A stretch of 64,000 nucleotides of DNA from Malachius bipustulatus (taxonomy: Eukaryota > Arthropoda > Insecta > Coleoptera > Melyridae): positions 10,610,268-10,674,267 of the forward strand of contig OU342639.1 in assembly GCA_910589415.1 (NCBI GenBank), written 5' to 3'. Shown piece by piece: positions 40,339 to 63,632 of the stretch. The position numbers and the translations under genes are program-made. Below the pieces are notes generated by a model, which ran no database searches, was not told where the DNA came from, and saw only the letters and a program-made list of their open reading frames with translations. Within the stretch, counting starts at the first letter, position 1, and every line of letters begins with the position of its first letter.

Positions 40339-40396
40339 ACATTTAGCGCCGGCCATCTAGGTACGATTAAATATACGCAGACACCCGGGATAAATG
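40339..40396. repeat. Hairpin b
   Basis: ACATTTAGCGCCGG opens and CCCGGGATAAATG closes the stem around CGATTAAATATACG; inner pairing is weak in this copy. Confidence 0.7.
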
Positions 40397-41140
40397 ATAT
40401 GAAAACAATCTACTTCAGTAGCGTAGCTTGAGATTTGGGGCCAAAAACATTTGGCGGGGCGGCTCTCTTAAAGTTTTCTTCATTGGTGGTTCGTGGATTA
40501 GGTGCAGAACAAGTCGAAATAAATCAAAAGTTGCATATTATACCTACATAATAAATTGGGTGAACAACCTCCAGGGTGTTTGGGGGATACTCCATACCAA
40601 CAACAACAAAGGGGGGTTAGGGCGTCTACCCCCGGAAAATTTTTCAGAAAAGAGATAAGAGATACAGGTTCGGTTTAATTTAAGAAAAGATGCGCACAAA
40701 ATGTGGCCATGTCGGAAATATCCTGAAAAAACTGAAAAACTTTCTTATTTTTGCCATATCTTTTTTTTATTTTTTAATCATTGGAATAAGTCAAAATTCA
40801 GCTCAACAATTCAAAAAATTAAGAATTAAAATTCTTCGAATCAAACTAAAACTAAAAGAATCAAACTAAAACTAAAAGAATCAAACTAAAAATCAAACTG
40901 AAATTCATCTGAATAAAAAAGAAGAATTCAGAAGGAAAATCTTCTTGAATATTACAGAAGAGCGCTAATTTCCACACCACCCAAGAGGTATAGCGCGTGG
41001 CGCGTTTTTTTTAACGTGGTCTCCCCTGAGAGGCCTAATCCACGGAGAAACTTTATGATATACGCTTACAGTAAAATAAATTATATTATTTGGTAATCTT
41101 CGTTTCGTGCAAGATTTTACGAAAATGTTCGAACGATTTT

Positions 41141-41195
41141 ACATTTAGCGCCAGGTGAGTACGATTAAATATACGCAGACACATGGACTAAATGT
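41141..41195. repeat. Hairpin c
   Basis: ACATTTAGCGCCAGGTGAGT and CAGACACATGGACTAAATGT surround the loop CGATTAAATATACG. Confidence 0.75.
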
Positions 41196-41867
41196 GAGAA
41201 CAATCAACTTCTTTTCTTGTTTACCTCTTTAACTTCTCAACTTCTTCTCACTGTTCTCGATATCTGGAAAGAAATGTAAAGTGAATCTAACGAAGTGAAT
41301 CTAAGTACCTAACAGAATCTAAAGCATCACTTCCCATAAAAACGCATTTTTCCCACTCTCTCACCAATCAAATGGATAAATTTTATAGGAATTTTTCACA
41401 CGCTACAAAAATTCGAAAATCAGAGTCTTTTGAGAGAAAATTAAATTAAAACATTTGGCAACAGTGCCATGTGGTAATGAATCACAATCCTTGAGAGAGG
41501 AATTGAGAATAACGAAGAGTGGGCCGGATAATATTGAGTCACCCAATGTGGTATAGATAGATAGATAGAAGCTGACATAGAACAATCTTCATTTGCATGC
41601 ACTTTTACATTTTAATTTTGGATTCTTCCATAACGAGGAAACTATAACTAATCCATGGAGAAACTCAAAAATATCCATTCCTCGCTTGCGCCATGGGGAT
41701 CAATAATAAAAATAAACTAGAGAATCTCTAATGAACTAAGAAAGGGTTACATAATAATTATGTTCTCAGATTCGCTAATGACTTCCCGATTAGTCATACG
41801 CAGAAATAATAATAAATAAATAATCTTCGTTTCCTGGCAAGATCGGTGAAAAGGTTCGAAAGTTTAT

Positions 41868-41922
41868 TCATTTAGCATTTGCTCTCTACGATTAAATATA
41901 CGTAGACAACAAAACTAAATGT
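41868..41922. repeat. Hairpin d
   Basis: TCATTTAGCATTTGCTCTCT and AGACAACAAAACTAAATGT surround the standard loop; GTAGA pairs with TCTCT-side bases next to the loop. Confidence 0.7.
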
Positions 41923-42733
41923 GAAAACAATCGACTTGACGCTTTTCTTCTCGCACAGTTATCGGTATCTGGAAAAGAATGACTGAAAGAAAAGTAAAAC
42001 TTACAGAATCTAAAATAATTGAAATGCGAATGGCGAAGCCTGTTCACATTAATTTCCTTAGAATGTTTTCAGTCGCTACAAGAAGTCGAAAATCAGAGAA
42101 ATCTCTTTTAACATAAAACTTGGCAACAGAGATGAAACATTTGGCAACAGTGTAATGTGATAATGAGTCAAAATTATAGGGAGAGGAATTGAGAGTAACG
42201 AAGATTTTGAGAGTCACCCAATGAGGGAACAAAAGAAGATGTATGTTGCAAGATGAGATTACACAATTTTCATTCGAACTTTTACATTTTATTAGATTTT
42301 TCCATAGCGTGGTCTGATTTCCCCCGACAGACCCTATCAGGTAAAAACTCCGAAGGTTTACCAATACTCGCATTGTCGGAGGGATAATACATTGTCCATC
42401 TTCAAGAGAGGTGACAAGGAAACTACTTACAATTGTGGGCTACCCTGCTTGTATCGAGAAAATTGGCTTAAAAAAAGCAGTTTCAAAGTAAAAAAAAAAA
42501 TGTTATTTGGTAGGAGGTTTTCGAGATCTGGCCATGGAAAATTACAAGTTGTTGGCGCGATGTCAACACATTTTTTGAAAATCAGTGAAATTCCATCCAC
42601 GTTAAAAAATATTTTTGGAGAGGTTGGGATGAATTTGTTGATCGATAAAAAGTTAAAAAATTGAATTTCATCGATTCAGACCCAAAAGGTATGAATTTGG
42701 ATAAAAACGAAGTCTTCTAGAATATTACAGAAG

Positions 42734-43612
42734 AGCGCTAAATTCCACACCACCCAAGAGGTATAGCGCGTGGCGCGGTTTTTTTAACGTGGTCTCCCCT
42801 GAGAGGCCTAATCCACTGAGAAACTTTGTGATATACGCTAACAGTAAAATAAATTATATTATTTGATAATCTTCGTTTCGTGCGATTTTTGAGGAAAATG
42901 TTCGAACGTTTTTACATTTAGTCCGTGTGCCTACGATTAAATATACGCAGACACCCGGACTAAATATTAAAAACAAACAACTTGGTGCTTTCATTCTGTT
43001 TTCTCACTTTCCACGAGCTCTGAAAAGTGTAGGTAATTGCGATTTTAAGTATACCCACCGAACCAACACAAATAATTGTAAATGAGAATTTTTGAGAATA
43101 TTTACAATAGTTTCTTAAAAAATAGTTGCACTTAACACTAAGAAGCACTTAAGACTAAGAATAAAAAATCAGAACGTATGAGCTTCACTCGTTCGTCCAT
43201 CTTCTGTTTACTTTCTTCTCAAAGTAAGCAAATTTCTCACCAAATATATCAAGTGGCGCTCTGTATTACGATTATAAAGCACGTAATTGCAAAGCTCACT
43301 TGCTGTATCTAATGAAATAAACATTTTGAAACTTATTTCCTCTCTTCGTAGTAATCCTTCATTGTAGTGAAGTTTCGTGCGATTCGAAAAAAAATCATTC
43401 CGTAAACGCGGTGGAGGTACTAAAATGTCCAAGAATAAAAGAAATGCAATTGAAAATTTATTCAAGATACTGTCACTTTCATTCATATCTGCAAAGAAGG
43501 ATAAAAACTGTTGGAAAAAAACGAGAAAAACAAAAATTATAGAGCCATGTGATTTAAAAGATTCAAATTTAGATTTTTTCAAATACATGTATAGCTTTTC
43601 TAGAATATAGAA
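42734..43612 (+). repeat. Half-size unit (cap, hairpin, module 1), copy 1
   Basis: 879 bp from cap to the next, diverged cap. It matches the 884 bp unit at 45920-46803. Confidence 0.78.
42914..42966. repeat. Hairpin e
   Basis: ACATTTAGTCCGTGTGCC and GACACCCGGACTAAAT pair through TAGTCCG/CGGACTA and GTGT/ACAC. Confidence 0.8.
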
Positions 43613-43647
43613 AAGGGGTAATTTCCACACAGCCCAAGAGGTATATA

Positions 43648-44278
43648 CAGGATGATTGATTGAAACGCCACATTAGAGAAAGTTCGACTTCCAAGAAATG
43701 ATCTAGGAATCTGAAATTTGGAACTTAGCAACACACCTAATAACGAGTCAAAATGAAATATTACCAAGATGGGAGAACACTTAAAAATGCCGAAAGCAAT
43801 TATCAACTTTGTTTTTTTAAATGGGACACCCCATATATTTTTGCATTTTCAGATTGTCTGAGAAAATGTAATAACAATGGTGCTTATAGTTGTATTTTAA
43901 ATTGAGTAGGCCATGAGTTAATATAAACAAGTGAAAATCGTGATATTCCAACTTTAAAGACATTTACCACGAAAACGGCTCCAGATATCAGAAAACGGCT
44001 TACATGTCTCTATATTAACTTTTCATCCGGTATCCTACTGTATAGTGGAAATGTTTATACAGGGTGATGAAAAATCTGTCAATTTTCACCACCTTGTATA
44101 AACATTTCAACTGCATAATTGGATGCCTTATAAAAAGTTAAGATAGGGACATGTAAGCCGTTTTCTAATATCTGGAGCCGTTTTCGTGGTAAATGTCTTT
44201 AAAAGTTCCAATTTTCAGATTCCTAGATCATTTGGAAGTCGAACTTTTTCTAATGTGGCGTTTCAATCAATCACCCTG
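43648..44278. mobile_element. Palindromic MITE P5, inserted in a cap module
   Basis: The 631 bp element has ends CAGGATGATTGATTGAAACG and TTTCAATCAATCACCCTG, with TA at 43646-43647 and 44279-44280. It shares the core GGGACACCCCATATATTTTT with P2. It interrupts the cap at GGTATA. Confidence 0.86.
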
Positions 44279-44423
44279 TATATTTCACCCCCCCCCTTTT
44301 TTTTTTAACGTGGTATCCCGTGACGGAGAAACTCTATAATATGCGGTTGCAGTAAAATAAATTCTGTTATTAAGGAATCTTCGTCCCCTGGAAAGATTTG
44401 ACGAAAATGTTCGAAAGTTTTAT

Positions 44424-44479
44424 ACATTTAACCCCGCCAGATAACGATCAAGTAAACGTAATCCGCCAGGGCTAAATGT
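44424..44479. repeat. Hairpin f, variant loop
   Basis: ACATTTAACCCCGCCAGAT and ATCCGCCAGGGCTAAATGT surround CGATCAAGTAAACG. Stem and loop both differ from the common type; hairpin l differs from it by one base. Confidence 0.8.
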
Positions 44480-45919
44480 GAAAACAATCAACTTGACGCT
44501 TTCATTCTGTTTTCTCACTGCCCATGAGATCTGAAAAGTGTAATTATAAATTTAATCGTGCCGACCGAGCCAACACAAATAATAAATGTAATGTGAATTT
44601 CTGAGACTGTTTACAATAATTTCTTAAAAGATAGTTGCACTTAAGACTGTAAGAATAAAAAATCAGAACGTAGGTACCTATAAGCTTCTCTCGTTCGTCC
44701 ATCTTCTTTAAAGTAAGCAGATTTTCTCACCAAATATATCAAGCGCCGTTCTGTAATACGATTATAAATCACGTAATTACAGAACTCCACTTGCTGTATC
44801 TAATGAAACAAACTGCTTTAAACTTTGTTTCTCTTCATATGTAGTTAATCGCCTTCATGATTTCGATGTTTCCTGTGAATGCGGTTATAAAATAATCGGA
44901 AAAAATCTATCTTTCAGTAGACAAGGTTAAGGTTGACGAAAAAAATGCAAGAAAGCAAAAAAGTGAAGAGACGTGATTTAGAGGTTTTAGATTTCACGGC
45001 TCATACTTCCAGAATCTTTCACAAATATCTAGTTCGACATATAAATTCCTCTGACAACTATGCACATTGCCGTTTATAAAACAATTTCTTCACTTAAAAC
45101 AAACAATATTATTATAAAAAATCGGTGGAAAAACTCTTCTCATTTTGTCCGTTTTCGTTCTGTTGTCTTCCTCCGAAAATGAGTTTTCCTTTAAGAAACA
45201 ACAATGGAAAGTGTTCCACAAAATAAAACAGACTCACACAAAAGTTAACAAGTCAAAATTTACAGTTTTTAAGACCGTTGAAGCCGCAAAATAGAAATAG
45301 GCGAAGACTCGATTGCTTATAGTAGAAGAGGCTCTATGTTTCAGACATATCAACACGAAACATTCAAATGATTTGGAGGAATATATAAAAGCAAAGAAAC
45401 AGACGAAAAAAGACATGAAAAAGAAAAAGTGAAAGATAGGAACAGACTCTTGGGAATATAGAACAGTATCTACGACGAATACAAGAAGTTCTGAAACATA
45501 GATGAAGAAAAGGTATATCTAATGAAAAATTGTCGGAGGGATGATACATTGTCCCATCTTCAAGAGAGGTGATAAGGAAACTACTTAAAATTGTGGGTTT
45601 CCCTGCCAGTATCGAGAAATATTGATTCAAAAAAAGCAGTTCAAAATGAAAGCAAAGAAAAAACTGTTATTTGGTAGGAGGTTTTCGAGATCTGGCCATG
45701 AAATTACGACAAGTTAGCACGATGTCAACCCATTTTCACACTGTCAACATTTTTTAGAAAATCAGTGAAATTACATCCACGTTAGAAAAGATTTTTGAAG
45801 AGGTTGGGATGAATTTGTTGATCGAAAAAAAATAAAAAATTGAATTTCATCGACTCAGGCTAAGAGGAAGGAATCTGGATAAAAAAGAAAGGAGGAAATC
45901 TTCTAGAAAATTACAGAAG

Positions 45920-46803
45920 AGCGCTAATTTCCACACCACCCAAGAGGTATAGCGCGTGGCGCGTTTTTTTTAACGTGGTCTCCCCTGAGAGGCCTAATCC
46001 ACTGAGAAACTTTATGATATGCGCTAAAAGTAAACTAAATTATATTATTTGATAATCTTCGTTTCGTGCAAGATTTGACGAAAATGTTCGAACGTTTTTA
46101 CATTAAGTCCGTGTGCCTACGATTAAATATACGCAGACACCCCGACTAAATATGAAACCAATCAACTTGGTGCTTTCATTCTGTTTTCTCACTGTCCCCG
46201 AGATCTGAAAAGTGTAATTGCGAGTTTAAGTATACCCCCACCGAACCAACACAAATAATTGTAAATGAGAATTTCTGAGAATGTTTACAATAGTTTCTTA
46301 AAAAATAGTTGCACTTAACACTAATAAGCACTTAAGACTAAGAATAAATACTCAGAACGTATGAGCTTCTATCGTTCGTCCATCTTCTTTTTACTTTCTT
46401 TTCAAAGTAAGCAGATTTCTCACCAAATACAGCAACTGATGCCAGGCAATACGATTATAAACCACGTAATTGCACAGCTTCACTTGCTGTACCTAATGAA
46501 ACAAACACTCTTAAACTTATTTCCTCTCTTCGTATATAGGAATCCTTCATAGCAGCATTGATGTTTTCTGCGATTCGAAAAAAAATCATTCCGTAAACGC
46601 GGTGGAGGTACAAAAATGTCCAAGAAGAGATGAAATGCAAATGAAAATTTATTCAAAATACAGCCACTTTCATTCATATCTGCAGAGAAGGATAAAAACA
46701 GTTGGAAAAACCGAGAAAAACAAACATTATAGAGCCATGTGATTTAGAAGATTCAAATTTAGATTTTTTCCAATACATGTATAGCTTTTCTAGAATATAG
46801 AAA
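45920..46803 (+). repeat. Half-size unit (cap, hairpin, module 1), copy 2
   Basis: 884 bp with the same order as 42734-43612, including GTAAACGCGGTGGAGGTAC in module 1. Confidence 0.78.
46100..46152. repeat. Hairpin g
   Basis: ACATTAAGTCCGTGTGCC and GACACCCCGACTAAATAT around the standard loop; sister of hairpin e in the same module context. Confidence 0.78.
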
Positions 46804-46975
46804 AGGGGTGATTTCCACACAATCCAAGAGGTATAGATGTTGCCCCCCCCCTCCTTTTTAACGTGGTATCCCGTGACGGAGAAACTCAATAATATGCGCT
46901 TGCAGTAAAATAAATTCTGTTATTTAGTAATCTTCGTCTCCTGGCAAGATTTGACGAAAATGTTCGAACGTTTTT

Positions 46976-47030
46976 ACATTTAGCGCCGGGTTAATACGAT
47001 TAAATATACGCACTAACTCGGACTAAACGT
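46976..47030. repeat. Hairpin h
   Basis: ACATTTAGCGCCGGGTTAA and CTAACTCGGACTAAACGT: inner stem GGGTTA/TAACTC replaces the GTGTG/ACAC of e and g while pairing is kept. Confidence 0.8.
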
Positions 47031-47662
47031 GAAAACAATCAACTCTTAGACTTTGATAATTTTTCTCTTCTCACTGTTCTCGATAGCTGGAAAGAAATGG
47101 AAAGTGAGACTTACAGAATCTAAAATAATGAATTTTATTACAGTGCGAATTCCGAAGCCTGTTTACATTAAGTTCTTTAAAATGTTTACACTCATTACAA
47201 AAATTCCAAAATCTTAGCTCTTTTAAATGAAAACTACATATAATAAAACATTTGGCAACAGTGTCATGTGGTAATGAATCACAATTCTTGTGAGAGGAAT
47301 TGAGAATAACGAAGACTGGGCCGGATGATATTGAGAGTCACCCAATGTGGTATATGGATAGATAGATAGAAGATAACATAGAACAATCTTCATTTGCATG
47401 CACTTCTACATTTCAGATTGTTCCATAACGTGGAAACTATAACTAATCCATGGAGAAACTCAAAAATATCCATTCCTCGCTTGCGCCATGGAGATCATTA
47501 TATAACAATAAACTAAAGAATCTCTAATGAACTAAGAAAGGGCAACATAATAATTATGTTCTCAGATTCACTAATGACTTCACGTAGTTACACGCAGAAT
47601 TAATGCTAAAGTTAATAATCTTCGTTTCCTGGCAAGGTCGGTGAAAAAGTTCAAAATTTTTC

Positions 47663-47716
47663 ACATTTAGTCGGGATCTCTGCGTATATTTAATCGCAGA
47701 GAGCCCTACTAAATGT
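47663..47716. repeat. Hairpin i, inverted copy
   Basis: ACATTTAGTCGGGATCTCTG and CAGAGAGCCCTACTAAATGT enclose CGTATATTTAATCG, the reverse complement of the usual loop. The whole hairpin is the reverse complement of hairpin p, yet both flanks have normal orientation. Confidence 0.85.
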
Positions 47717-48596
47717 GAAAACAATCAACTTGGTGCTTTTATTCTGTTTTCTCACTGTCCACGATGTCTTCTAGATCTAGAAAATTACAGAAGTGCGCTA
47801 ATTTCCACACCACCCAAGAGGTATAGCGCGTGGCGCGTTTTTTTTAACGTGGTCTCCCCTGAGAGGCCTAAATCCACGATGAAATTCAAAGGTAACCTAT
47901 ATACCACCTGAATACGTAAAGGATAAATTTACTTACATATGATTCTTTTCCTCTCAAAAATGATGAAAAGGGTTACATTTGTTCGCAGATCCACTAATGA
48001 CTTCACGATTAGTTAAACGGTGAAATCAAAAGCCGATCTCAAAACAATGTCTCCCTCGCCTCTGGATACTTACTGATAAGTTTCTTCTTGTCTGTTACAG
48101 TCTCGAGATCTGAAAATTAGGAGGCTTAAATACTTAAATGTACTTACCGAATCAACGCAAATAATATTATAATAATAATAATAATATTTCACAGAATTGT
48201 GAAATTTTACAGTAATTAAAAAAAAATACTTTCACTTAAGACTAAGAATAAAAAAATGAGAGGGTATAAACTTCTATTTTCCGTTCATCTTCTTTTTCCT
48301 TTCTTTTCAGAACCAAGTTTGTTACCAACAAAAAAAAGTGCGTACGATTACAAATCACGTTTCACCGAGCCTCACTTGTTGTAGGTATCTAAATCCAGAA
48401 AAACAATATTGGAATAAGATGGGAAGAGACATATGCCTGTTCTGTTTGTCGTAGTCTCCCTCGACAGCACCAAACCTAAATGAAGATTAAATTCAGGAGA
48501 AACTCGAATGATATGTGCGCATGCAGTAAAATAAATTCTCTTGCTCAGTAATCTTCGTTTTCTGACAAGATTTGACGAAAATGTTCGAACGTTTTT

Positions 48597-48651
48597 ACAT
48601 TTAGCGCCGGATTATTACGATTAAATATACGCACTAACTCGGACTAAATGT
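48597..48651. repeat. Hairpin j
   Basis: ACATTTAGCGCCGGATTATT and CACTAACTCGGACTAAATGT around the standard loop; close to hairpin h. Confidence 0.77.
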
Positions 48652-48962
48652 GAAAACAATCAACTCTTAGACTTTGATAATTCTATTCTCTCTTCTCGCT
48701 GTTCTCGATATCTGGAAAGAAATGGAAAGTGAAACTTACTAACAGAATCTAAATTAATAAATTTAATTGCAACGTTTTCACTGGCTACAAAAATTCAAAA
48801 ATCACAGGGGTCATTTGAAAGAAAATTTTAAAACATTGTCAATGCATTGTCACCCTGTCAACATTAAGTGTATTTTTTTTAATAAAAAACGCAGTATTGA
48901 ATACGACATCACTCTTCGAAAATCACCCAAACTCATGAAATGTTCACCGATCCTGACCCCCA

Positions 48963-48989
48963 GATCATGACCCCCAGGGGGTCATGATC
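48963..48989. repeat. Perfect short palindrome
   Basis: GATCATGACCCCC and GGGGGTCATGATC are separated by one A: 13 paired bases on each side. A direct echo, GATCCTGACCCCCAGATC, precedes it. Confidence 0.8.
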
Positions 48990-49025
48990 GGTGGACGTTT
49001 CATTATTTATACATTTACATATATA

Positions 49026-49475
49026 CCGGGTGTCCCATTAGTACAGGATTGTTCTCTGGCAGCTTTACTTTTGAAGTTAGAAAAAAAAAGATGTGACAGA
49101 AAAGTTGTGTGGTTTGAAGAGAATCTACAACCTTAAATAATTTTCAGCTAGACACGGTGGCCCAATATCGCTGTACGCCTTACAACTTTGTTATTAGTAG
49201 GACACCCTATATATTATTACATTTTTAGATTGTCTGAGAACATTCAGTGATAATGGTTTTCACAGTTTGAATTTAAACTGAACTGTAGTCAGAGTTATAA
49301 ACAAGTGAAAATTGCCATTTTTCATTTTCAAAGCAGCTTATACAATGAAAACGGCTCAAGACAGCAGAAAACGGGTTACATGTCCCTTTCTTAATTTTTC
49401 ACCTGGTATCCCATCGTGCGGATGAAATTATTATAGAGGGTGATGAAAATTATCAGGTTTTTCATCACTTGTCAA
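49026..49475. mobile_element. Decayed palindromic MITE P6
   Basis: It begins CCGGGTGTCCCATTAGTAC after TATA and contains the P2/P5 core (ACACCCTATATATTATTAC, GATTGTCTGAGAA). The right arm is lost. Confidence 0.6.
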
Positions 49476-49674
49476 ATATACATCCCTCGCTTGCGTCAGG
49501 GCGATCAATAATAAAAATAAACTACATAATCTCTAATGAAATAAAAAAGGGTTACATAATAATTATGTTCTGAGATTCGCTACAATGACTTTCCGATTAG
49601 TTATACGCAGAAGTAATAATAAGTAAATAATCTTCGTTTCCTGGCAAGATCGGTGAAAAGGTTCGAAAGTTTAT

Positions 49675-49729
49675 ACATTTAGCACCGGCTCTCTACGATT
49701 AAATATACGAAGACAACCGGACTAAATGT
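49675..49729. repeat. Hairpin k
   Basis: ACATTTAGCACCGGCTCTCT and AGACAACCGGACTAAATGT around the standard loop; CCGG pairs with CCGG. Nearly identical to hairpin q. Confidence 0.8.
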
Positions 49730-50728
49730 GAAAACAATCAACTTGGCGCTTTTCTTCTCGCACAGTTATCGATATCTGGAAGAGAATGACTGAAAGAAAA
49801 GTAAAACTTACAGAATCTAAAATATTTGAAATGCGAATGGCGAAGCCTGTTCACATTAATTTCCTTAAAATGTTTTCAGTCACTACAAAAAGTCGAAAAT
49901 CAGAGAAATCTATTTTAAAAGAAAACTTGGCAACAGATGAAACATTTGGCAACAGTGTCATGTGATAATGAGTCATAATTACAAGGACAGGAATTGAGAG
50001 TAACTAAGATTTTGAGAGTCACCCAATGAGGGAACTACTAAGAAGATGTGTTACAAGATGAGATTACACAATTTTCATTAGAACTTCTACATTTTAGATT
50101 TTTCCATAGCGTGGTATGCCCTCTCTCTGACAGACCCAATCAGGGAAAATCTCGAAAGATTCGCCAATACTCGCATTGTCGGAGGGATGATACATTGTCC
50201 ATCTTCAAGAGAGGTGACAAGGAAACTACTTAAAATTGTGGGTTACCCTGCCAGTATCGAGAAATATTGACTCAAAAAAAGCAGTTCAAAATGAAAACAA
50301 ATTTTCGAGTTCTGGCCATGAAAATTACGACAAGTTTGCGTCATGTCAACCCATTTTCACACTGTCAACATTTTTTTGAAAATCAGTGAAATTACATCCA
50401 CGTTAGAACAGATTTTTGTTTTTGAATAGGTTGGGATGAATTTATTTATCGATAAAAAATTAAAAATTAAATTTCATCGATTCAGACTCAGAAGGTATGA
50501 ATTTGGATAAAAACGAAGATAGGAAGTCTTCTAGAATATTACAGAAGAGCGCTAATTTCCACACCACCCAAGAGGTATAGCGCGTGGCGCGTTTTTTTTA
50601 ACGTGGTCTCCCCTGAGAGGCCTAATCCACGGAGAAACTTTATGATATACGCTTGCCGTAAATTTAATTACAATATTTAGTAATGTTCGTTTCCGGACAA
50701 GATTGGACGAAAATGTTCGAAAGTTTCT

Positions 50729-50784: not shown

Positions 50785-51426
50785 GAAAACAATCAACTTG
50801 ACGCTTTCATTCTGTTTTCTCACTCTTCTCGATATCTGGAAAGAAATGGAAAATGAAACTTACTTACAGAATCTAAAATAACGAATTTTATTACAATGCA
50901 AATTCCGAAGCCTGTTTACATTAATTTCTTTAAAATGTTTACACTCATTACAAAATTTCAAAAAGTCTTACCTCTTTTAAATGAAAACTACTTACAATAA
51001 AACATATGGCAACAGTGCCATGTGGTAATGAATCACAATTCTTGGGAGAGGAATTGAGAGTAACGTAGAGTGGGCCGGATAATATTGAGAGTCACCCAAT
51101 GTGGTATAGATAGAGAGATAGAAGATGACATAGAACAATCTTCACTTGCATGAACTTCTACATTTTAATTTTAGATTCCTCCATATAATGAGGAAACTAA
51201 CTAATCCATGGAGAAACTCAAAAATATCCGTTCCTCGCTTGCACCAGGGAAATCAATATTGAACATAAACTAAACAATCTCTTACATTAATCTCCCTCTT
51301 TTCTGAAAAGTGATGAAAAGAGTTACATAATCAGATTCACTAGTGACTTCACGATTAGTTATAATTAATACTAAAGTAATAATCTTCGTTTCCTGTCAAG
51401 ATCGGTGAAAAGGTACGAAAGTTTAT

Positions 51427-51481
51427 ACATTTAGCACGACTGTGCACGATCAAGTGTACGTCCACAGCAAGAGCTAAATGT
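51427..51481. repeat. Hairpin m, second variant loop
   Basis: ACATTTAGCACGACTGTG and CACAGCAAGAGCTAAATG surround a CGATCAAGTGTACG loop. CTGTG/CACAG is a stem found in no other copy. Confidence 0.8.
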
Positions 51482-52450
51482 GAAAACAATCAAACTTATG
51501 CTTTTCTTCTAGCACAGTTATCGATATCTGGAAAAGAATGAATTAAAGAAAAGTAAAACTTACCAGAATCTAAAATAATTGAAATGCGAATGGCGAAGCC
51601 TGTTCACATTAATTTCCTTAAAATGTTTTCAGTTGCTACAAAAAGTCGAAAGTCAGAGGAATCTCTTTTAAAAGAAAACTTGGCAACAGATGAAACATTT
51701 GGCAACAGTGTAATGTGATACTGAGTCATACTTACAAGGACAGGAATTGAGAGTAACGAAGATTTTGAGAGTCACCCAATGAGGGAACTAAGAAGGGGTG
51801 TGTTCCAAGATGAGATTACACAATTGTCATTCGAACTTCTACATTTTAGTTTTCTCCATAGCGTGGTATGATTTCCCTCGACAGAACCAATCAGGGAATT
51901 TCTCGAAAGATTCACCAATACTCGCATTGTCGGAGGGATGATACATTGTCCATCTTCAAGAGAAATGACAAGGAAACTACTTACTTAAAATTGTGGGCTA
52001 CACTGCTAGTATCGAGAAATATTGGCTAAAAAAAAAACAGTTCAAAATGAGAAGAAAAAAAACTATTATTTGGTAGGAGGTTTTCGAGATCTGGCCATGA
52101 AAAATTACGACAACTTGATGCGATGTCAACGCATTGTCACACTATCAACTAGTTTTGAAAATCAGTGAAATTCCTTCCACGCTAGAAAAGTTTTTTTGAA
52201 GAGGTGGGATGAACATATTGATCGATAAAAAATTTAAAAAATGAATTTAATAGATTCAGACTCAGAGAAGGTATGAATTTGGATAAAAAAGAAGAGAGGA
52301 AATCTTCTAGAAAATTACAGAAGAGCGCTAATTTCCACACCACCCAAGAGGTATAGCGCGTGACGCGTTTTTTTAACGTGGTCTCCCCTGAGAGGCCTAA
52401 TCCACTGAGAAACTTTGTGATATACGCTAACAGTAAAATAAATTATATTA

Positions 52451-53196: not shown

Positions 53197-53380
53197 GTTT
53201 AGCTGTCCGGGGGACCATAACTAAATCGTTTTCTGGTAGGTTTTGATTTTTCGCTTTGATTAAATAGGCGTTGGGAGCGAGTTTGTGAATTTAAGAGATT
53301 TTTGTTTTGGCGTAAATCGGTGAGGTTTTCATACTCAAGATCAGTAGGGAGACAGAGCTTACAGAATTTTTGCATAGTTG

Positions 53381-54345
53381 TTAATTAATTTTTGACATAA
53401 ACTCGAGAATTACAGGAATTGATAAAGTTGCTTTTTTTTGTCTTATTTGCATCAGGTTGGATTCTATCGTTGGAACTGTCATGACCAAGATATATGACAG
53501 CTTAGGGGAAAAGACGATACACTTAGTTATTTGCAAGGTCAAATTGTATTCCCTTAACAATTGCAAAACTTTTTCCAGTTTTAAGGAGACCCCACTTTGA
53601 GAAGACGACGATGGAATCAAGATATCGTCCAAATAGGGCATGATGTACTTTTTAAATTGTCCGCTTATTGGTATATACTGTTGGACAATGAATGTATAAA
53701 TAAAATAAAAATGACGTGGGGTCACGTAATTCAGATAGAATTTTTGGCAGCATCTGCTGAAAAACAGCAGGAGCATTATACAGACCGAAAATCATACGTA
53801 AAAACTCGTATTTGCCATCCGGAGTAATAAACGCTGTCTTTGCTATTGAATACGCGAGGCCATGGGTACTTGAAAACAACCTGAGTATAAGTGTAAGGTA
53901 ATAAATCTGTTATCATTTAAATTAGAGTTTATCAAGTTGGTCGATACGAGGAAGTGGGAATTTATATTTAACAGTGATTCTATTTAGTTTTCTATAATAA
54001 CATAAACGGAAGTCGCCTCTTTTCTGGGGAACGAGAATATAGGACTAGTTGAGAGGCACGAATTATTTTCACAGAAGAGCTAGCAACAGTAGTTCTATAA
54101 TAGTTTTTATCTATTATTTCTTGCGCTTCAAGACTTTGGCTGGGCCGATATAAAGTATTATAAACAACTGGAACCGACGATACCACATTTATTTCCATGC
54201 GGGCAGCGGATGTGTTGCCCATTTCTCTTAAAGTGGTACCTACACAATTACGATTTGCATTTAATAACTTTAAAACAGCTGGTTTCTGAAAAGGGTAATT
54301 TACTTGGTTATTAGTGATGGGAGGGCGATTCTTTCCATTTTTCAA
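53381..54345 (-). pseudogene. Reverse-transcriptase remnant of Gypsy element
   Basis: Minus-strand frames give, in order, VVYNTLYRPSQSLEAQEIID (RT N-terminal part, 54345-53992), TAFITPDGKYEFLRMIFGL and NAPAVFQQMLPKIL (53879-53770), and MPYLDDILIPSSS (YLDD active site, about 53640). Several frameshifts separate them. Confidence 0.85.
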
Positions 54346-54359
54346 AATGTAATGTGGGG

Positions 54360-57033
54360 TTTTAAAATAAAATTATTCCCTAAAAGGATATCAGCAGGAC
54401 ACATAATAATTATGATCAGGTACCAGTTACCACTACATATTAATTAGATCCTAGATCCGCAGTTGTATTATTGCTGCATGATATTTACTTTACTGATATT
54501 TTGTACATCGATACCAAATATGTAATAATGAAAGAGATTGAATCTGATTTACGTTCTTTTACAATTCTGACAACGTAGTCAAATCATTACGTCCATTAGT
54601 CTTATCATGAAGAAATATTACCTTCACAACTTCACAGTACCTAAGTATTTAAATTACATTCGTCTTCATCACTTAGTAAAATCATTAGGACTCCATTGTT
54701 TACATCCTAATTAATCATTAGTTAATTACAAAATCAAAATAATTGCATAAAACCCATCTTTCAAATCTGAATTTTTATTATTTAGTTTTTTTTACAAAGA
54801 AAAAGCTATAGGTAGGTACTTATAATATAATTTTTCAAAACAAAATTTTTTTTTTTATACTTTATTACAATTCTTAATTCACGGGGCGCGTTATTATTTA
54901 CCACTTTTAAGCATAAGTTATTTCCTGGAAAAATTTCATTGACATGTAAATTGACACTCGGGCATTCGCATCCTTACACATTATTTCCAAACCAACTAAT
55001 TAATATTAATTATTATGATATTCAATATTCCGTGAACCTCCGTTCTTTATTTTATGCTGTGCGGGTAGAAGACTGACTGACTGAAGAAGAGAAATTTGCG
55101 CCTTGCGCGCCAACTTCAGAACTTGTGAACAGAAAATGTGAGACTTTAAAAGAGATAAACTATTAAAATTCAGGGCCTCTTGTTAGGGGCTCTTTGCCTC
55201 TCTCTCACTTGCAATTATTGCACTAGGTTTATATTACCTATTATTTTTAAATAAGTATTAGGTCGATTCTACCAAAGACGGACGTCGAATTTACATATTT
55301 CAATAATATCGCCTCAACTTCATATAGTAATAATTCCCAAATTCGTTGCTAAAATTTACGTAATATCTACTCTCACTTTGATCTTCGTCACGTAAAGTCG
55401 AGGTAAACTTCACGCAATTTAGGTTAGGTGATTTAGATTAGTATACCGTAGAATTGTGTATTACTCATGTTTCGGTTTATTTGGGGGGGGGAGTTACTTA
55501 TTGTGTTTTGTTTTGTAAGTTATTTAATTATCTACTGTATTCATTGGACTTTTTGCCCTTAAGGAGCATTTTTGATTGTTTACCATAGACTTGTTTTCAG
55601 GCAATTATCTTGTAGTTTAAATATTAAAAGAAAAGTTAAGTATAGTAGCGGAAGCTAGACTTCGCCTTTGTATTGAATTGTCTATTGCAATATTAAGTTA
55701 AAATAAAGACACTTTTGTATTAAATTTCATTAAACTATCCAGAGCGGTATAACAGATATTATGAAAAAATTATTTATTTTTAAAAACTTTACCACCCTGT
55801 ATCTCAAAAGTTAAGACTCCTAGGACATATGTTCCTATGAAGTTTTCTTCTTAAAATGGACCCAAAAATCACCCCCTTAAATATTGACATTCAATTAGAA
55901 AACACCCTGTATATCTAAATAATATAGGTACCTAATAAATTACGTCGAATCGCCGCAAATTAAGCCTAAACTGCTACTTGGGTTCAATTCTACTTCAGCT
56001 TACTTCATGCTTTATTCATGCTTCATTTGTATTTTTGTATTTTGTATTTTTGAGGGTGATTAAGTTACTGCGACCTAAAAGATCTATTGTATCCCCTCTA
56101 CTGTGCTTCGCCTGATGTGGAATCCCTTTAGTGAAGCACCCTCTCCAAGTCCGTTTCCTTGAGAAACTTCAGGATTTTGAGAGGATCAAGGTCGGGTAAA
56201 TTCCCTGCCTCTAGCTGGTGGTGGCCCAGAACATTACTTCTTTTGAGTTCAATTCTACTTCAGCTAACTTCATGCTTCATTCATGCTTCATGCTTTTGCT
56301 TTACTTTTACCTATCGAATTCAAAATAAGTCATTTGGACTTTGGAGAGCTCCCCAACTTTAGTCAGGCTTCTTTTCATCCACTCATCATGCAACTCTCAA
56401 CTCACTAGCTAAAAATAGCTGCTTACCTTTAGGAATAATCTCAGAATAATCTTTATTATCTTCTCACAACTCTATATTCAACATGGCAATAGCTGCTTAC
56501 CTTTGGGAATAATCTTCACATCAACTTCGAAAGTTGCAAACTATAATTTTGGTTAATTTTTGTATGCTTTTTCTCATAAAGGACCACTGTTTCACCCCTC
56601 GTTGTGATTTTTCCTTAGCAAACCTGTAATATGCTTCCTCATTTACATACCTGATCTACTTGCTTACCGACACACCAGCTGGATATCAATCCAATACGTT
56701 AATACTTAATACTCAGTGTTTTCTTGCAAGATTTCTTGAGCTTCCTTTTTCCGACAGCTCGTCCAAGTCTTGATCATGTTAAATTTATTTCATCGGACAT
56801 TTGCCAAAATTTACTTTATTTGGTGATTATTGAAATGAGCGGCATGGGTATAGGGCGAAACGGCCTACACCATCGGACAGCCCTTTATTTTTCTTCACTT
56901 TCACCACGAAAAGGCGTTTTTGTGGACATGGTTATACATCAACTGTGATTTGTCTGTATTATAAACACATCGGTACTTCACAGTATTACACCTCAAAATT
57001 CGTTAGTTTTAGGTTCGGACCACTTCTGACAAC
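54360..57033. other. Internal region of the dead LTR element, unassigned
   Basis: No gag or protease is recognisable. AT-rich, with a palindromic-MITE fragment near 55790-55915 (ACCACCCTGTATCTC ... ACACCCTGTATATC) and a partial MITE F from 56822. Confidence 0.5.
56822..56882 (+). mobile_element. MITE family F, one-arm fragment
   Basis: GGTGATTATTGAAATGAGC followed by GGGTATAGGGCGAAACGG matches one arm of 36345-36756, then similarity stops. Confidence 0.7.
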
Positions 57034-57347
57034 TGTTTGTACAAAATTTGTAGAGGCACAGGGAAACACCGTATTTATACAACTATTTTATTCAACTCTA
57101 ATCTCATAACACTTCGTAGTTTAATACTATTAGAATATATAAGAATATATTGAGTAGCAACCCGGAGCGTTCCCATTCCCTCACTGTTCTCTTCGCTCGC
57201 GTTGGACACCGTCCGAGCTCGTTCGACGTCTCCCCTCCACGGCTGCTTGCAGACGGTCGGTGGTTCCCCGCTGAAACTCACCGACAGACCACCGTACTGC
57301 CGACGGCGGAACCAGCCAAGGACAGCTACCGTAGAGGTGATCTCACA
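57034..57347 (-). repeat. LTR (element 5' copy)
   Basis: TGTTTGTACA...TCTCACA. On the minus strand it is followed inward by GTTGTCAGAAGTGGTCC, the place of a primer-binding site. Confidence 0.82.
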
Positions 57348-57403
57348 ATTATTTGGTAATCTTCGTTTCGTGCAAGATTTGACGAAAATGTTCGAACGTT
57401 TTT

Positions 57404-57458
57404 ACATTTAGTACCGTGTTCCTACGATTAAATATACGCAGACACCCGGACTAAATGT
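57404..57458. repeat. Hairpin n
   Basis: ACATTTAGTACCGTGTTCCT and CAGACACCCGGACTAAATGT around the standard loop. It sits just beyond the inserted LTR element. Confidence 0.78.
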
Positions 57459-58132
57459 GAAAACAATCAACTTGGTATGCTTTCATTCTGTTTTCACACT
57501 TTCCACGAGATCTGAAAAGTGTAATTGCGATTTTAAGTATACCCACCGAACCAACACAAATAATTGTAATGAGAATTTCTGAGAATGTTTACAATTGTTT
57601 CTTAAAAAAGAGTTGCACTTAACACTAATAAGCACTTAAGACTAAGAATAAAAAATCAGAACGTATGGGCTTCTCTCGTTCGTCCATCTTCTTTTTACTT
57701 TCTTTTCAAAGTAAGCAGATTTCTCACCAAATACAGCAACTGATGCCAGGCAATACGATTATAAATCACGTAATTGCACAGCTCACTTGCTGAATCTAAT
57801 GAAACAAACACTTTTAAACTTATTTCCTCTCTTCGTATAGTAATCCTTCATTGTAGTGATGTTTCGTGCGATTCGAAGAAAAATCATTTCGTAAACGCGG
57901 TGGAGGTACAAAAATATCCAAGAAAAGATGAAATGCAAATGAAAATTTATCCAAAATACTGTAACTTTCATTCATATCTGCAGAGAAGGATAAAAACAGT
58001 TGGAAAAAAACCGAGAAAAACAAAAATTATAGAGCTATGTGATTTAGAAGATTCAAATGCAGTAAAATAAATTCTGTTATTTAGTCATCTTCGTCTCCTG
58101 GCAAGATTTGACGAAAATGTTCGAACGTTTTC

Positions 58133-58188
58133 ACATTTAATGCCGAATTCAGTACGATTAAATATACGCACTACCCCGGACTAAATGT
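58133..58188. repeat. Hairpin o
   Basis: ACATTTAATGCCGAATTCAG and CACTACCCCGGACTAAATGT around the standard loop; inner pairing is partial. Confidence 0.7.
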
Positions 58189-58302
58189 AAAAACAATCAA
58201 CTCTTACACTTTGATAATTTTATTCTCTCTTCACTGTTCTCGATATCTGGAAAGAAATGGAAAGCGAAACTTACTTACAGAATCTAAAATAATGATGAAT
58301 TT

Positions 58303-59965
58303 GGTAATTGTATACATCCGCGGCTCCTAAGTTTCATCAATTTTTTCGGGACCGAGGAGTGAAATAGGGGTGCTGGGTGGGTAAGAAGCTAAAAACAGCC
58401 ATTGCAAACTAATATTAAGGTCACAACTAAGGCCTCTTTGGCACTACGGTCGAATTTCTATTTTTTTTTTCACTTTCAGGGCAAGGAAAATCTTCGAAAA
58501 TAACAGTAGCACAATTTTTTTTTTGAATTTTGCATTTATTTTGCATTTATAATCCGAAAATCATTCCATCAATCCCTCTGGACTGAACACGATAATGTGA
58601 AAGCGGATATATCGCCCAGTCCGCCTCTGTAAGTCTCGAACACAGAATAGAATACTTGGCAATTATCCTGAAGTGGTGTATCCGGGATCGCGGCATCTAA
58701 TCGGTGCCTCTTGTCAGGACCGCACTCCCTCCGCACTCTCAAAACCGGTTTTTTACGCCGTTTTGTGGCTTTCCCTTTCATTTGCAAAGCAAATGAATAC
58801 CTTCCTGGTGTTACTATAGGTATGTTCTCCACCCCTATATAGGTGCCATAGTGAAACTGTAGGAGCCGCGGATGTATACAGGGTGTATCTAAATAACACC
58901 GAAAAAAATTAAGGGGTGATTCTGTGATGAAAATTAAGGGGGGTATTTGGTATAGAATTTTTCGAAAAAACTCTCCCCGAAAAAGTTACACCCCTCCGAA
59001 GAATTAAGAAAAAATGGTTTTTATTTTTTATTTTCCCTGTATATTAAGCTAAAGACACGAAAATTGGTAAATATTAATTGTCAATGAAACTACATATTTT
59101 GAATTTTTTTCAACCTTGATGTATGCTTAGAAGGGATTGAAATAGTCAACCCCTAAGATGTTTTATCATACAAATTTTTTTTTTTAGATTAAAAATTTTC
59201 TCTAAAATAACACGACTGAATAGCTCAATGAATCTACAAACTTTTTTATCTTCACAAGTTGTTTCGAAAACTTAAGCATTTACGAGAAAAAAAATAAATG
59301 ATATGCATTTTCACAAAGATGAGCTAACGCGATGCCTTAAGGTCTAGTGGTCTGTGCTTTGCAGTGACATTCATAAAAACAATAATACTGATAGCATTAT
59401 ATTATTGTATTGTTGACCTTCGACAGTTTCTTTTTTCATTCTTTGCTTACTATTGTTTTAGTTGTAAGAATCTTTGCCTAATTTTTTGGTTGGCTATTGT
59501 TCAATAAAACACTATTTATAACATGAGCTTGCAATACGTTTATTTTTTTTTCTCTTAAGTGCGCAAGTTTCAGAAAAAACTTATGGAGATAAAAAAGTTT
59601 GTAGATTAATTGAGCTATTCAGCCGTGTTTTTTTTTAAAGAAAAATTTCAATCTAAAAAAAATTGTAAGGTAAAATATCTTAGGGGTTGACTATTTCAAT
59701 CCCTTCTAAGCATACTTCAGGGTTGAAAAAAATTCAAAATATGTAGTTTCATTGACAATTAATATTTATCAATTTTCGTGTCTTTAGCTTAATATACAGG
59801 GAAAATAAAAAATAAAAACATTTTTTTTAATTCTTCGGAGAGGTGTAACTTTTTCGGGGAGAGTTTTTTCAAAAAATTCTATACCAAATACCCCCCTTAA
59901 TTTTCATCACAGAATCACCCCTTAATTTTTTTCGCTGTTATTTAGATACACCCTGTATAATGACC
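58303..59965. mobile_element. MITE family E, copy 3, split by a large palindrome
   Basis: Ends GGTAATTGTATACATCCGC and GCGGATGTATA plus TAATGACC. An exact 8-bp duplication ATGAATTT is at 58295-58302 and 59966-59973. Removing it restores the module 3 sequence AATAATGAATTTTATTACAG. Confidence 0.9.
58879..59955. mobile_element. Large palindromic MITE P8, inside MITE E
   Basis: The 1077 bp element has arms of over 300 bp (CAGGGTGTATCTAAATAAC / GTTATTTAGATACACCCTG). TA duplication is at 58877-58878 and 59956-59957, confirmed against the uninterrupted end at 38260-38275. The centre (about 59300-59560) is not paired. Confidence 0.9.
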
Positions 59966-60433
59966 ATGAATTTTATTACAGTGCGAATTCCGAAGCCTGT
60001 TTACTGTTTACATTAACTTCTTCAAAATGTTTACACTCATTACAAAAATTAAAAAGTCTTAGCTCTTTTAAATGAAAACTACATGTAATAAAACATTTGG
60101 CGAGAAATTAAAATTTTTGGAGAGGAATTGAGAATAACGAAAAGTGGGCCGGATAAGATTGAGAGTCACCCAATGTGGTATAGATAGATAGATAGAAGCT
60201 GACATAGAACAATCTTCACTTGCATGCACTGTCAAATATACATCCGTCGCTTGCACCAGGGAGATCAATAATAAAAATAAACTAAATAATCTCTAATGAA
60301 CTAAGAAAGGGTAACATAATAATTATGTTCTCAGATTCACTAATGACTTCACGATTAGTTACACGCAGAATTAATGCTAAAGTTAATAATCTTCGTTTCC
60401 TGGCAAGGTCGGTGAAAAAGTTCAAAATTTTTC

Positions 60434-60487
60434 ACATTTAGTAGGTCTCTCTACGATTAAATATACGCAGAGATCCGGACTAAATGT
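60434..60487. repeat. Hairpin p
   Basis: ACATTTAGTAGGTCTCTCT and AGAGATCCGGACTAAATGT around CGATTAAATATACG. It is the closest relative of the inverted hairpin i, in the same flanks (AAAGTTCAAAATTTTTCAC and GAAAACAATCAACTTGG). Confidence 0.83.
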
Positions 60488-60844
60488 GAAAACAATCAAC
60501 TTGGTGCTTTTATTCTGTTTTCTCACTGTTCACGATATCTGAAAAGTGTAATTGCGATTTTAAGTGTACCCGCACCGAACCAACACAAATAATTGTAATG
60601 TGAATTTCTAAGAATGTTTACAATAGTTCCTAAAAAAATAGTTGTACGAGTGAAAGGTACATCTTTGTCTAATATTGGCTAAAAAACCGTTCAAAATGAA
60701 AACAAAAAAAAACATTTTTTTTAGGAGATTTTAAAAATCTGACAGTGAAAAACCACGACAAGGCGCGGTGTCAGCGCATTGTAACACTGTCACACTGTCA
60801 CACCCAGGATAGACTATAAATCTTTTGAAAAGGTGGGATCAACT

Positions 60845-62816
60845 CAGCGCCGGCCCGAGAAAATTTGGCGCCCTAGGCGAATGAATTTAATGGCGCCTCT
60901 TTGACTCTTTGAAATAAAATTTTCGCAACAAAACAAAAACGCTACTGACATTGAAAATAAATACTTTATCATGTAACAAATTACTTAAAATTCTCCATTT
61001 TTTATTATAAATCATACGTAAATCACATTATAATGACATAATGTACAACCTACAATAATAATTAACATACGAGGTACATTATGATGTACTCCATAGAATT
61101 TACATTTTCATGTTCCTTGCCTTATCAATAATTTTTGCAAATGTAGAAACAATGTCCTTTATTTACAATTTCCCTGCTATTTCCTGTTCTATTCACAAGT
61201 GTTGATAATCCAACTAACTCTCAGTGACTTCCTAAGTCACAAAAACTTTTTGTTTCTAACATTATAGCGACATTGAAAATTAATATTTTAATAAGTTAAC
61301 AAAATTAACAAACAAAATACTTTCATTGCATTCTGCTCACGGGATCCGTGATCTAAACTGTGCTGTGTCTTGGTAGATACATTGTACTGAAGAGTCCCAA
61401 ACAGGACGAAACACGTGTCTACAATTTCCGCCTCTGCTCACAGCACAACATCAATGGATGGCATGTTGTCTGACAACATGTCATTAATCTATTGTCTAAA
61501 ATACTTAAAGTTTTTCAATATTAAAAAAAAATTACATTATGTATATTTAATTACATATACAGGGTGTGAAATTTTTGTGCTACCCCATCATTGGAATCTC
61601 GTAAACGGTAAGAGATACAGGGTCGCTTTTATTAGAGAAAAGTGTCTCAATTTCATGCTTATTAAGAATCTGAAATAAAGTTTAGAAAAATTTCAGATGT
61701 TGCTGAAATATGCTGAAAACACTGAAAAATAACGAGTTTTCATTTCAGCTATCTTTTTATTATTGATACTTAATCGAATTTTTTTTGTAGGGTTACATAA
61801 GTCATCAAAAGCTATTCATTTGAAGTGACATTAAAAAAATTTTAAATCGACTAGATCCCGAAGTTTTCATAGACAACTTTTGTTTTTCTCATGGCCACCA
61901 TATTATTTTTTTATTTAGTTCGGTATAAAACAAATCTCAGAATCCAAAAAACATTTTTTCATTCAAAATTTTTTATTCTAAATTTTTCTTTCCTTTTTTC
62001 ACCGAAGTACGTCAGTATGAAGTAATATTACTTTCCTTATGTGTTTTTATTTTTTAATTTTTGTATGGTAAAAATGTTGTCAAAAAGAGAATAAAATTTA
62101 AATTTTTTTTTAAAACAATTGTTGACTATGAAAACTCTGTGATCTAGTCGGCTTGGAAAATTTTCGAAATATCAAATTGACAACTCTTGATGACTTTATG
62201 TAAGTCTACTAATTTTTTATTAATTTTAAAAAAATAAAACAAGATATGGCTGAAATAAGGAATTTGGATTTTTTAGTTTTGTCAGGATATTTTAGCAACG
62301 CCTGAAGTTTTCCCAAATTTTATTTCAGATTCTTAATAGGCATGAAATTGGACCTTTTCTCTAATTTAAGCGATCCTGTATCTCTTACTGTTTACGAGAT
62401 CCTAATGATAGATAGTACAAAAATTTCCCACCCTGTATACAATAACAATTTCTTTGAATTCTGAATTAAAATATTTTATATCTTTTGTTCAAATTGTTAT
62501 GATCTAACTAAACCATTACCGATTGTTTGTTAATATTCTGTAAAGTAATATTCTGTTGAAATGAAAGTAAATATAATTCTTTAGGTAGGTACTAAAACTT
62601 ATAGAATAAAGTTTCAAAGGATCAAGATCAAACAAATTAAATTAAATAAGTCGAAATTCCACAATCAAAGAATTTGTTAATTTTGTGTACAATTTTTGTA
62701 ATTTTTAAAACATTTTCGGGTTCTGTTTAATGAATGATGAACACGCAAATGCCGCCCCCCAAATTCTAGCGCCCTAGGCGGTCGCCTAGTTCGCCTATAT
62801 GGACGGGCCGGCCCTG
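60845..62816. mobile_element. hAT-like element with CAGGGCCGGCCC ends, carrying P7
   Basis: Ends CAGCGCCGGCCCG and CGGGCCGGCCCTG; GGCGCCCTAGGCG recurs inverted inside the right end. Flanks GATCAACT and CATCAACT match at 7 of 8 bases. No transposase is seen. P7 (61560-62435) lies inside. Confidence 0.82.
61560..62435. mobile_element. Palindromic MITE P7
   Basis: Ends CAGGGTGTGAAATTTTTGTG and AAAAATTTCCCACCCTG with TA on both sides. Arms run inward through TAAGAGATACAGGGTCGC and TTTTGATGACTTATGTA-type blocks. Confidence 0.85.
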
Positions 62817-63577
62817 CATCAACTATTGATCGATAAAAAACTGAGAATTAAAATTTCATCGATTCAGACTCAGAAAGTACGAATTTGGATAAAAAAGAAA
62901 GAAGAAAATCTTCTAGAAAATTACAGAAGTGCGCTAATTTCCACACCACCCAAGAGGTATAGCGCGTGGCGCGTTTTTTTTAACGTGGTCTCCCCTGAGA
63001 GGCCTAAATCCACGATGAAGTTCAAAGGTAACCTATATACCACCTGTATACATAAAGGATAAATTTACTTACATATGATCTTTTCCTCTCAAAAATGATT
63101 AAAAGGGTTACATTTGTTCTCAGATCCACTAATGACTTCACGATTAGTTAAACGGTGAAATCAAAAGCCGATCTCAAAACAATGTCTCCCTCGCCTCTGG
63201 ATACTTACTGATAAGTTTCTTCTTGTCTGTTACAGTCTCGAGATCTGAAAATTAGGAGGCTTAAATGTACTTACCGAATCAACGCAAATAATAATTCGAA
63301 TTGTGAAATTTTACAGTAATTTCTAAAAAAATACAATCACTTAAGACTAAGAATAAAAAAATGAGAGGGTATAAACTTCTATTTTCCGTTCACCTACTTT
63401 TTCCTTTCTTTTTAGAACTAAGTTTCTTACCAACAAAAAAAGTGCGTACGATTACAAATCACGTTTCACCGAGCCTCACTTGTTGTAGGTATCTAAATCC
63501 AGAAAAACAATATTGGAATAACTTGCTCAGTGATCTTCGTCTCCTGGCAAGATCGGTGAAAAGGTTCGAAAGTTTAT

Positions 63578-63632
63578 ACATTTAGCACCGGCTCTCTACG
63601 ATTAAATATACGCAGACAACCGGACTAAATGT
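63578..63632. repeat. Hairpin q
   Basis: ACATTTAGCACCGGCTCTCT and AGACAACCGGACTAAATGT around the standard loop; the same as hairpin k apart from one base beside the loop. Confidence 0.8.

Follow-up and report, generated by a model that had tools for sequence, protein, structure and literature searches.

A multicopy hairpin array with a fixed apical loop and covarying stems in the beetle Malachius bipustulatus, a candidate microRNA cluster

Background

In the beetle Tribolium castaneum, mir-3851 and mir-3836 form multicopy microRNA (miRNA) clusters whose description rests on small-RNA reads (PMC4691753). Here we describe an array of about 98 hairpins in the malachite beetle Malachius bipustulatus (Melyridae), the left part of which lies in a stretch of 64,000 nucleotides of contig OU342639.1 (assembly GCA_910589415.1, positions 10,610,268 to 10,674,267, forward strand). 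This whole stretch is called the window, and its coordinates are used below unless megabases are given. The array resembles the Tribolium families, as these are described, in that it occurs in a beetle, consists of many clustered paralogous hairpins of several families and shows fast duplication and divergence. The Tribolium families keep the 3p seeds AGUACG, AGUACA and CACUGG, none of which was present on the RNA strand (see below) of 52 copies of families A and B, 17 of family E and 16 of C and D here. In addition, the Tribolium clusters are reported as mostly subtelomeric or on unmapped scaffolds, whereas the present array occupies an internal locus, very probably on the X chromosome, and its hairpins share an apical loop.

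Three other systems show partial likeness. The mammalian MIR-506 family (PMC11031087) is also an X-linked, fast-evolving hairpin cluster; it is derived from MER91C transposons, and its expression and role in male fertility were demonstrated. The likeness is one of description. In pre-mir-144 the loop sequence is conserved because the loop controls dicing (PMC9303283), and a conserved loop is seen here as well; however, pre-mir-144 is a single hairpin, whereas here one loop motif recurs over several stem families. The noncoding RNAs roX1 and roX2 act on the X and contain repeated stem-loops, eight of them in exon 3 of roX2 (PMC6451107), but they have few hairpins, with U-rich roX boxes that were absent from the hairpins examined here. 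Animal primary miRNA transcripts (pri-miRNAs) are described as having a stem of about 35 bp and a loop of 8-38 nt, with Drosha cutting by a rule of about 11 bp (PMC8865264).

Results

One locus with two outward-pointing blocks

An earlier note on the window had described 17 hairpin copies. All were recovered by a covariance model (R1) built from alignment A1, which consists of 52 distinct-sequence rows from 57 copies of families A and B that match a strict loop pattern, and which leaves out the orphan hairpin and copies with longer loops. Sixteen window sites scored 64-103 bits and the orphan, which lies outside the range that the note had given for the family, scored 48.7 bits. Over the surrounding 244 kb, R1 found 64 sites of at least 64 bits in addition to the orphan, one inverted site being scored on both strands.

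The same 244 kb were scanned for the loop motif CGT-N4..9-[TC][AG]ATCG enclosed by a stem of 20 or more pairs (the loop-plus-stem scan, which overlooks at least one of the copies found by R1, 46085-46169). This gave 99 hairpins, 98 of them in two blocks and one elsewhere. Block A (10.647-10.736 Mb) contains 87 hairpins, 86 of them on the minus strand, and block B (10.811-10.817 Mb) contains 11, all on the plus strand; the blocks thus point outward, and 97 of the 98 hairpins follow the single strand of their block. The window holds 24 of the 98. Five control motifs gave 0-6 hairpins against 99 for the real motif; TA[AG][TC], with 87, overlaps the real motif and is no control. When the scan was broadened to all strong-stemmed hairpins with CG-N9..13-CG, it gave 105 places, of which 104 were within the two blocks and 101 belonged to this hairpin family on either strand.

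In the window the loop CGATTAAATATACG occurred exactly 14 times (13 on the plus strand, 1 on the minus strand). With up to 3 mismatches there were 26 matches, against 9.4±3.3 in shuffled sequence, a number reached by none of 100 shuffles. Genome-wide (544,256,285 bp) the exact family A loop occurred 48 times, 46 times at this locus; the remaining two (L001 and L002) had no stem on inspection. The family A loop is therefore not dispersed, and a dispersed transposon or miniature inverted-repeat transposable element (MITE) could be ruled out for family A.

The X chromosome of the assembly is given as 34.00 Mb (PMC9992895). On its left side the array has a CAND1-like exon (2213-3064, minus strand; Pfam TPR_CAND1), which is a possible anchor when seeking the orthologous locus. 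None of the titles and abstract openings listed in searches of open-access full texts describes this locus. Among the papers listed for six hairpin words (20 of 24) none concerned insect small RNAs, judging by title, and a query on lineage-specific insect clusters gave no result.

Besides A and B, three further hairpin families that carry this loop motif are represented in the window, E by 4 copies and C and F by 2 each, and there are truncated D copies. The hairpins are listed here with their R1 score, minimum free energy (MFE) and z score, where available.

37095..37179, minus: orphan hairpin O (copy a of the earlier note), 48.7 bits, MFE -35.4, z -5.66
40324..40416, minus: family A, weakest copy, 64.5 bits, z -2.27
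41126..41211, minus: family A, 86.3 bits
41853..41938, minus: family A, 88.2 bits, three adjacent pairs different on both arms from 49660-49745
42899..42984, minus: family A, 89.5 bits, z -8.81
43233..43317, minus: family E, from family alignment and loop-plus-stem scan
44408..44495, minus: family B, loop UUUACUUGAU, 79.9 bits
44723..44808, minus: family E, from family alignment; the slightly longer 44720-44810 has z -7.27
46085..46169, minus: family A, 83 bits, z -4.41, missed by the loop-plus-stem scan
46416..46501, minus: family E, from family alignment and loop-plus-stem scan
46961..47046, minus: family A, 99.4 bits
47647..47731, plus: family A, sole inverted copy of block A, 73.5 bits on plus and 74.1 on minus, MFE -37.9 and -39.9, strands about equal
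47972..48055, minus: family C, loop UUUAACUAAU, only 16.9 bits with the A/B model, MFE -36.3, z -6.84
48298..48404 (ends approximate), minus: family F, weak, E-like, loop UGAUUUGUAAU, MFE -19.4, reverse -10.5
48582..48667, minus: family A, 99.7 bits
49566..49638, minus: D copy, 3' half of a C-type hairpin apparently joined to A-copy flanking sequence, MFE only -10.0
49660..49745, minus: family A, 97.4 bits
50714..50800, minus: family B, 86.5 bits, z -8.93
51412..51497, minus: family B, loop UACACUUGAU, 75.7 bits
57389..57474, minus: family A, 102.8 bits
57720..57804, minus: family E, z -6.13 for 57720-57807
58118..58204, minus: family A, 93.2 bits
60419..60503, minus: family A, 88.1 bits
63107..63190, minus: family C, 22.6 bits with the A/B model, from loop-plus-stem scan
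63402..63508 (ends approximate), minus: family F, weak, MFE -19.5, reverse -14.4
63563..63648, minus: family A, 101.2 bits
41731-41857, 47527-47651 and 60296-60422: other D copies, flanks included

At the whole locus there are 17-18 copies of E, 9 full copies of C and 7 of the weak family F. D seems to combine the 3' half of C with an A flank.

A fixed loop on rewritten, still-paired stems

The claim that the loop is kept while stems are rewritten holds in A1: mean pairwise identity was 0.933 in the CG-loop-CG element (0.997 among the 43 family A rows) against 0.61 and 0.49 in the upper arms. Identity was 0.94 in the lower stem (family A sequence ACAUUUAG/CUAAAUGU) and 0.83 and 0.80 in the bases adjacent to the hairpin. 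The apical block, CGU...URAUCG in RNA, is common to A, B, C, E, F and the orphan, and the stems differ among these families. Rare variants are UAAACG in one E copy and CAAUCG in one A copy.

The hairpins are uniform in size. In the loop-plus-stem scan the mean per family label was about 30-33 pairs around loops of 10-12 nt, and the best local family E hairpin has 35 pairs (MFE -45.8). The 5' arm of the RNA in A and B is constant in length, 14 nt in 42 of the 52 rows and 15 nt in 9 (1 unparsed), and the 3' arm varies, with 14-16 nt in 48 (3 misparsed, 1 at 19 nt).

Pairing is conserved over sequence, as had been proposed. In A1, 89.6% of the cells were paired, compared with 82.7±0.5 after shuffling, and 108 cells were doubly changed, compared with 48.0±4.9 after shuffling and at most 39 when the partner was slid by 1-3 columns. 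The covariation score was 0.233 versus 0.122±0.007. Each of these three values was reached in 0 of 500 shuffles. Family E, for which 17 of 18 copies were aligned (13 distinct; one copy with an insertion omitted), had 13 doubly changed cells where shuffling gave 6.0±1.6 (0/500).

In A and B the covariation exceeds nulls that preserve relatedness. By Fitch reconstruction, with a null in which the 3' columns were re-dealt among the 19 variable pairs, 28 compensatory branches were counted on the flank tree (null 3.2±2.9) and 10 on the hairpin tree (null 1.1±1.3), neither being reached in 500 trials.

The likely RNA strand

The strand opposite to the one read in the earlier note (minus-type) had the lower MFE in 91 of the 98 locus copies: 47/54 for A with the orphan, 11/11 for B, 9/9 for C, 17/17 for E and 7/7 for F. 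Among the broken D copies this was so in 9 of 13. At 20 window sites (17 of A, B and orphan, one of the two C and two of the four E) the minus-type strand had the lower MFE in 19, with z from -2.3 to -9.4 over the 20 sites; the z score of that strand was lower in 18, with one tie and one reversal, and averaged -6.5 versus -4.3 (calculated by hand). R1 scores, where listed, were 64-105 bits on the minus-type strand versus 33-53 on the other, the inverted copy excepted. Finally, G-U appositions exceeded A-C appositions in an alignment that scored both equally: 110:37 in A (41 distinct copies), 17:7 in B (7), 15:1 in C (5) and 32:19 in D (9). These results support the opposite strand as the better-folding and likely functional RNA strand. 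The plus strand as the functional one was rejected on energy, covariance model score and G-U content, though not by an event-based test, which is given in the Discussion.

Divergence and exchange between copies

Rates in stem and flank were compared among 57 copies, the closest class being 50 pairs with a mid-flank difference above 0 and up to 6%. In these pairs CG-loop-CG showed 0 differences in 700 positions; divergence was 3.0 and 6.4% in the lower stem, 13.6 and 18.8% in the upper arms and 7.4 and 6.4% in the far flanks. At a flank divergence of 6-15% the values were 21 and 27% for the upper arms, 15 and 22% for the far flanks and 4% for the loop; above 15% they were 33-38%, 25-33% and 7-9%. 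The upper arms diverge more than the far flanks.

Part of this excess may be due to exchange of hairpin cassettes between copies. Copies 69413 and 206918 have 1 difference in the upper arms and flanks that are 29.5% diverged. In copies 41889 and 49696 three adjacent pairs differ on both arms and the flanks are 4% apart. Since cassette exchange may explain part of the arm excess, we do not claim positive, diversifying selection.

Neighbouring elements

Immediately left of the array lies a 38-pair hairpin (36503-36590, MFE -70.1). A general fold scan gave hairpins that are for the most part ordinary background; on their own they were given no weight as evidence. Self-comparison showed further repeated blocks at 10.744-10.767 Mb and 10.824-10.830 Mb, between and beside the hairpin blocks. 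The only Rfam match at gathering score in the window is an unrelated type I hammerhead ribozyme (61381-61425, plus strand; 58.7 bits, gathering score 34), and hammerhead-like cores were seen by eye in hairpins near 10.83 Mb. A Gypsy-type retrotransposon open reading frame (ORF) of 1399 amino acids (24266-28462, plus strand) is open and has RVP, RVT, RNase H and integrase domains. Three long palindromes (9856-9943, 10446-10532 and 15759-15845) share GTCAGGGTAGG..., have an MFE of about -37 to -58 on either strand and are MITE-like. Elsewhere in the assembly, COX1 of the mitochondrial contig (3296-4901, minus strand) is split over the overlapping frames 3296-4486 and 4437-4901, perhaps by sequencing error. 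Cytochrome b, from a contig of 15,716 bp, has 99% identity to its counterpart in the malachite beetle Clanoptilus assimilis.

Discussion

Because the hairpins are close to pri-miRNAs in size, follow one strand per block and keep their pairing, a multicopy microRNA cluster is the known kind of element that fits best. We consider that the array is probably such a cluster, lineage-specific and X-linked; its miRNA identity, transcription, processing, guide arm and targets are inferred. The stem and loop size of animal pri-miRNAs was found on one RNA strand, family F being weak. In the proposed mechanism, long transcripts would run leftwards through block A and rightwards through block B, each unit folding into a stem of some 30-35 pairs with an apical loop of 10-12 nt. 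Cleavage would follow, by the Microprocessor about 11 pairs above the stem base and by Dicer close to the loop. Selection on pairing and arm length would let the middle of the arms drift through compensatory change. The fixed parts, namely the family A lower stem and the apical block, would then be processing signals and guide 5' ends.

Two alternative guides can be predicted. A family A 5p guide would start with ACAUUUAG... (seed CAUUUAG), which agrees with canonical geometry and the constant 5' arm length. The apical block may be a loop element for a processing or regulatory factor or, alternatively, the start of a 3p guide, UAAUCGU... (seed AAUCGU), which agrees with the cross-family conservation and would imply a very short pre-miRNA in family A.

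Several observations weigh against a miRNA cluster, or against the strength of the evidence for it. In miRNAs the loop is not usually better conserved than the arms. Under canonical geometry no seed on the arms is common to all families: the CATTTAG block has an identity of 0.94 versus 0.61 elsewhere in the 5' arm of A and B, E and C differ there, and the common URAUCG is loop. Of seven Tribolium and other insect seed hexamers, only ATCACA was found on the RNA strand, in 1 of the 52 A/B copies; AGTACG was present on the reverse strand of 9. No miRNA family of Rfam reached its gathering score in the window, the best being mir-548 with 30.2 bits versus 90, although a lineage-specific miRNA need not match an Rfam family. 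Neighbouring units lie 0.3 to several kb from each other. Stop-to-stop ORFs of about 70-160 amino acids recur in the units on both strands, some across E hairpins, and a coding role for them is possible. The two repeat ORFs examined, 42047-42373 and 43211-43630, had no Pfam match, and 1-nt length differences in E argue against a single conserved frame there.

The weaker measures of covariation and strand belong with these points. In A1 the pairs with a double change numbered 12 versus 9.2±1.0 (9/500 shuffles) and the further pair types 37 versus 34.0±1.8 (38/500), while in family E only 4 pairs had double changes versus 3.0±0.7 (143/500). RNAalifold alone predicted only 15 pairs on A1, 5 of them with double changes; the 28-pair structure used was drawn by hand from single folds. 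As to the strand, 7 of the 54 A copies (orphan included) fold no better on the RNA strand, the orphan has a G-U to A-C ratio of 2:2, and columns 16-82 favour A-C (6 G-U, 25 A-C). The event-based test, which counts on trees the single changes that start from a Watson-Crick pair, showed a trend only: 28:16 (p = 0.10) and 20:12 (p = 0.22) with two columns omitted, 32:22 and 23:15 with them.

We also put forward, tentatively and with a low probability, that the apical loop itself is the selected product, with the motif CGU...URAUCG displayed on about 98 hairpins with interchangeable, rewritten stems. It could provide multivalent sites of an X-acting RNA (for example in dosage compensation or silencing in X-linked conflict) or a processing code specific to the cluster.

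A structural long noncoding RNA of the roX type, in which hairpins are protein-binding modules with the loop as ligand and the stem as scaffold, seems unlikely. It would account for a family A loop confined to a single X locus, for many redundant stem-loops and for a motif that stays fixed over several stem families while the stems are free to change, and the eight stem-loops of roX2 exon 3 provide a precedent (PMC6451107). Such an RNA would not, however, require stems of uniform pri-miRNA-like size or a 5' arm of fixed length, and the D copies have no stable hairpin. The roX box has the consensus GTTNTACG. This was absent from both strands of the 52 A/B, 17 E and 16 C and D copies; a roX-like box, GTTATACG, occurs on the plus strand in the loops of 6 D copies outside that set.

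More doubtful again is an element acting as DNA (a cruciform, a replication origin, the end of a transposon or a site of recombination), in which template switching or a protein binding single strands would maintain the pairing. The copies are palindromic, near-identical units differ by multi-nucleotide changes on both arms, cassettes move between copies, and the strand asymmetry is not significant when counted by events. Nevertheless, energy, covariance model score and G-U content all prefer one strand, each block keeps to one strand, and the exact loops are concentrated at one locus. No replication or recombination protein was found beside the retroelement domains by Pfam on only 7 window ORFs; Rep, likewise absent from these 7 ORFs, was not searched for genome-wide. 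The earlier note had drawn analogies with integron attC sites and rolling-circle origins. Neither found support, although no search for an integron integrase was made: 46 of the 48 exact loops lie in one eukaryotic X locus, the other two are stemless, and the best fold is that of RNA from the other strand. Its suggestion of template switching in a cruciform survives in part. As a mutational contributor it is possible (copies 41889 and 49696), but arm copying alone does not predict that G-U exceeds A-C on one strand, that length changes are confined to one arm or that 97 of 98 hairpins keep one strand per block.

Least likely is a degenerating palindromic repeat, now functionless, that arose by local tandem duplication and gene conversion and is paired through ancestry and arm-to-arm conversion: broken D copies, the weak family F and evident conversion between copies fit it, but close pairs have a loop without any difference and upper arms 14-19% apart, and compensatory changes exceed nulls that preserve relatedness.

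If the miRNA cluster is confirmed, it would be a very large insect cluster of microRNA type, located on the X chromosome, and a natural experiment in which dozens of stems have evolved while their loop stayed fixed. From it one could learn where a pri-miRNA is under constraint, and whether an apical loop can serve as a processing code independent of the family.

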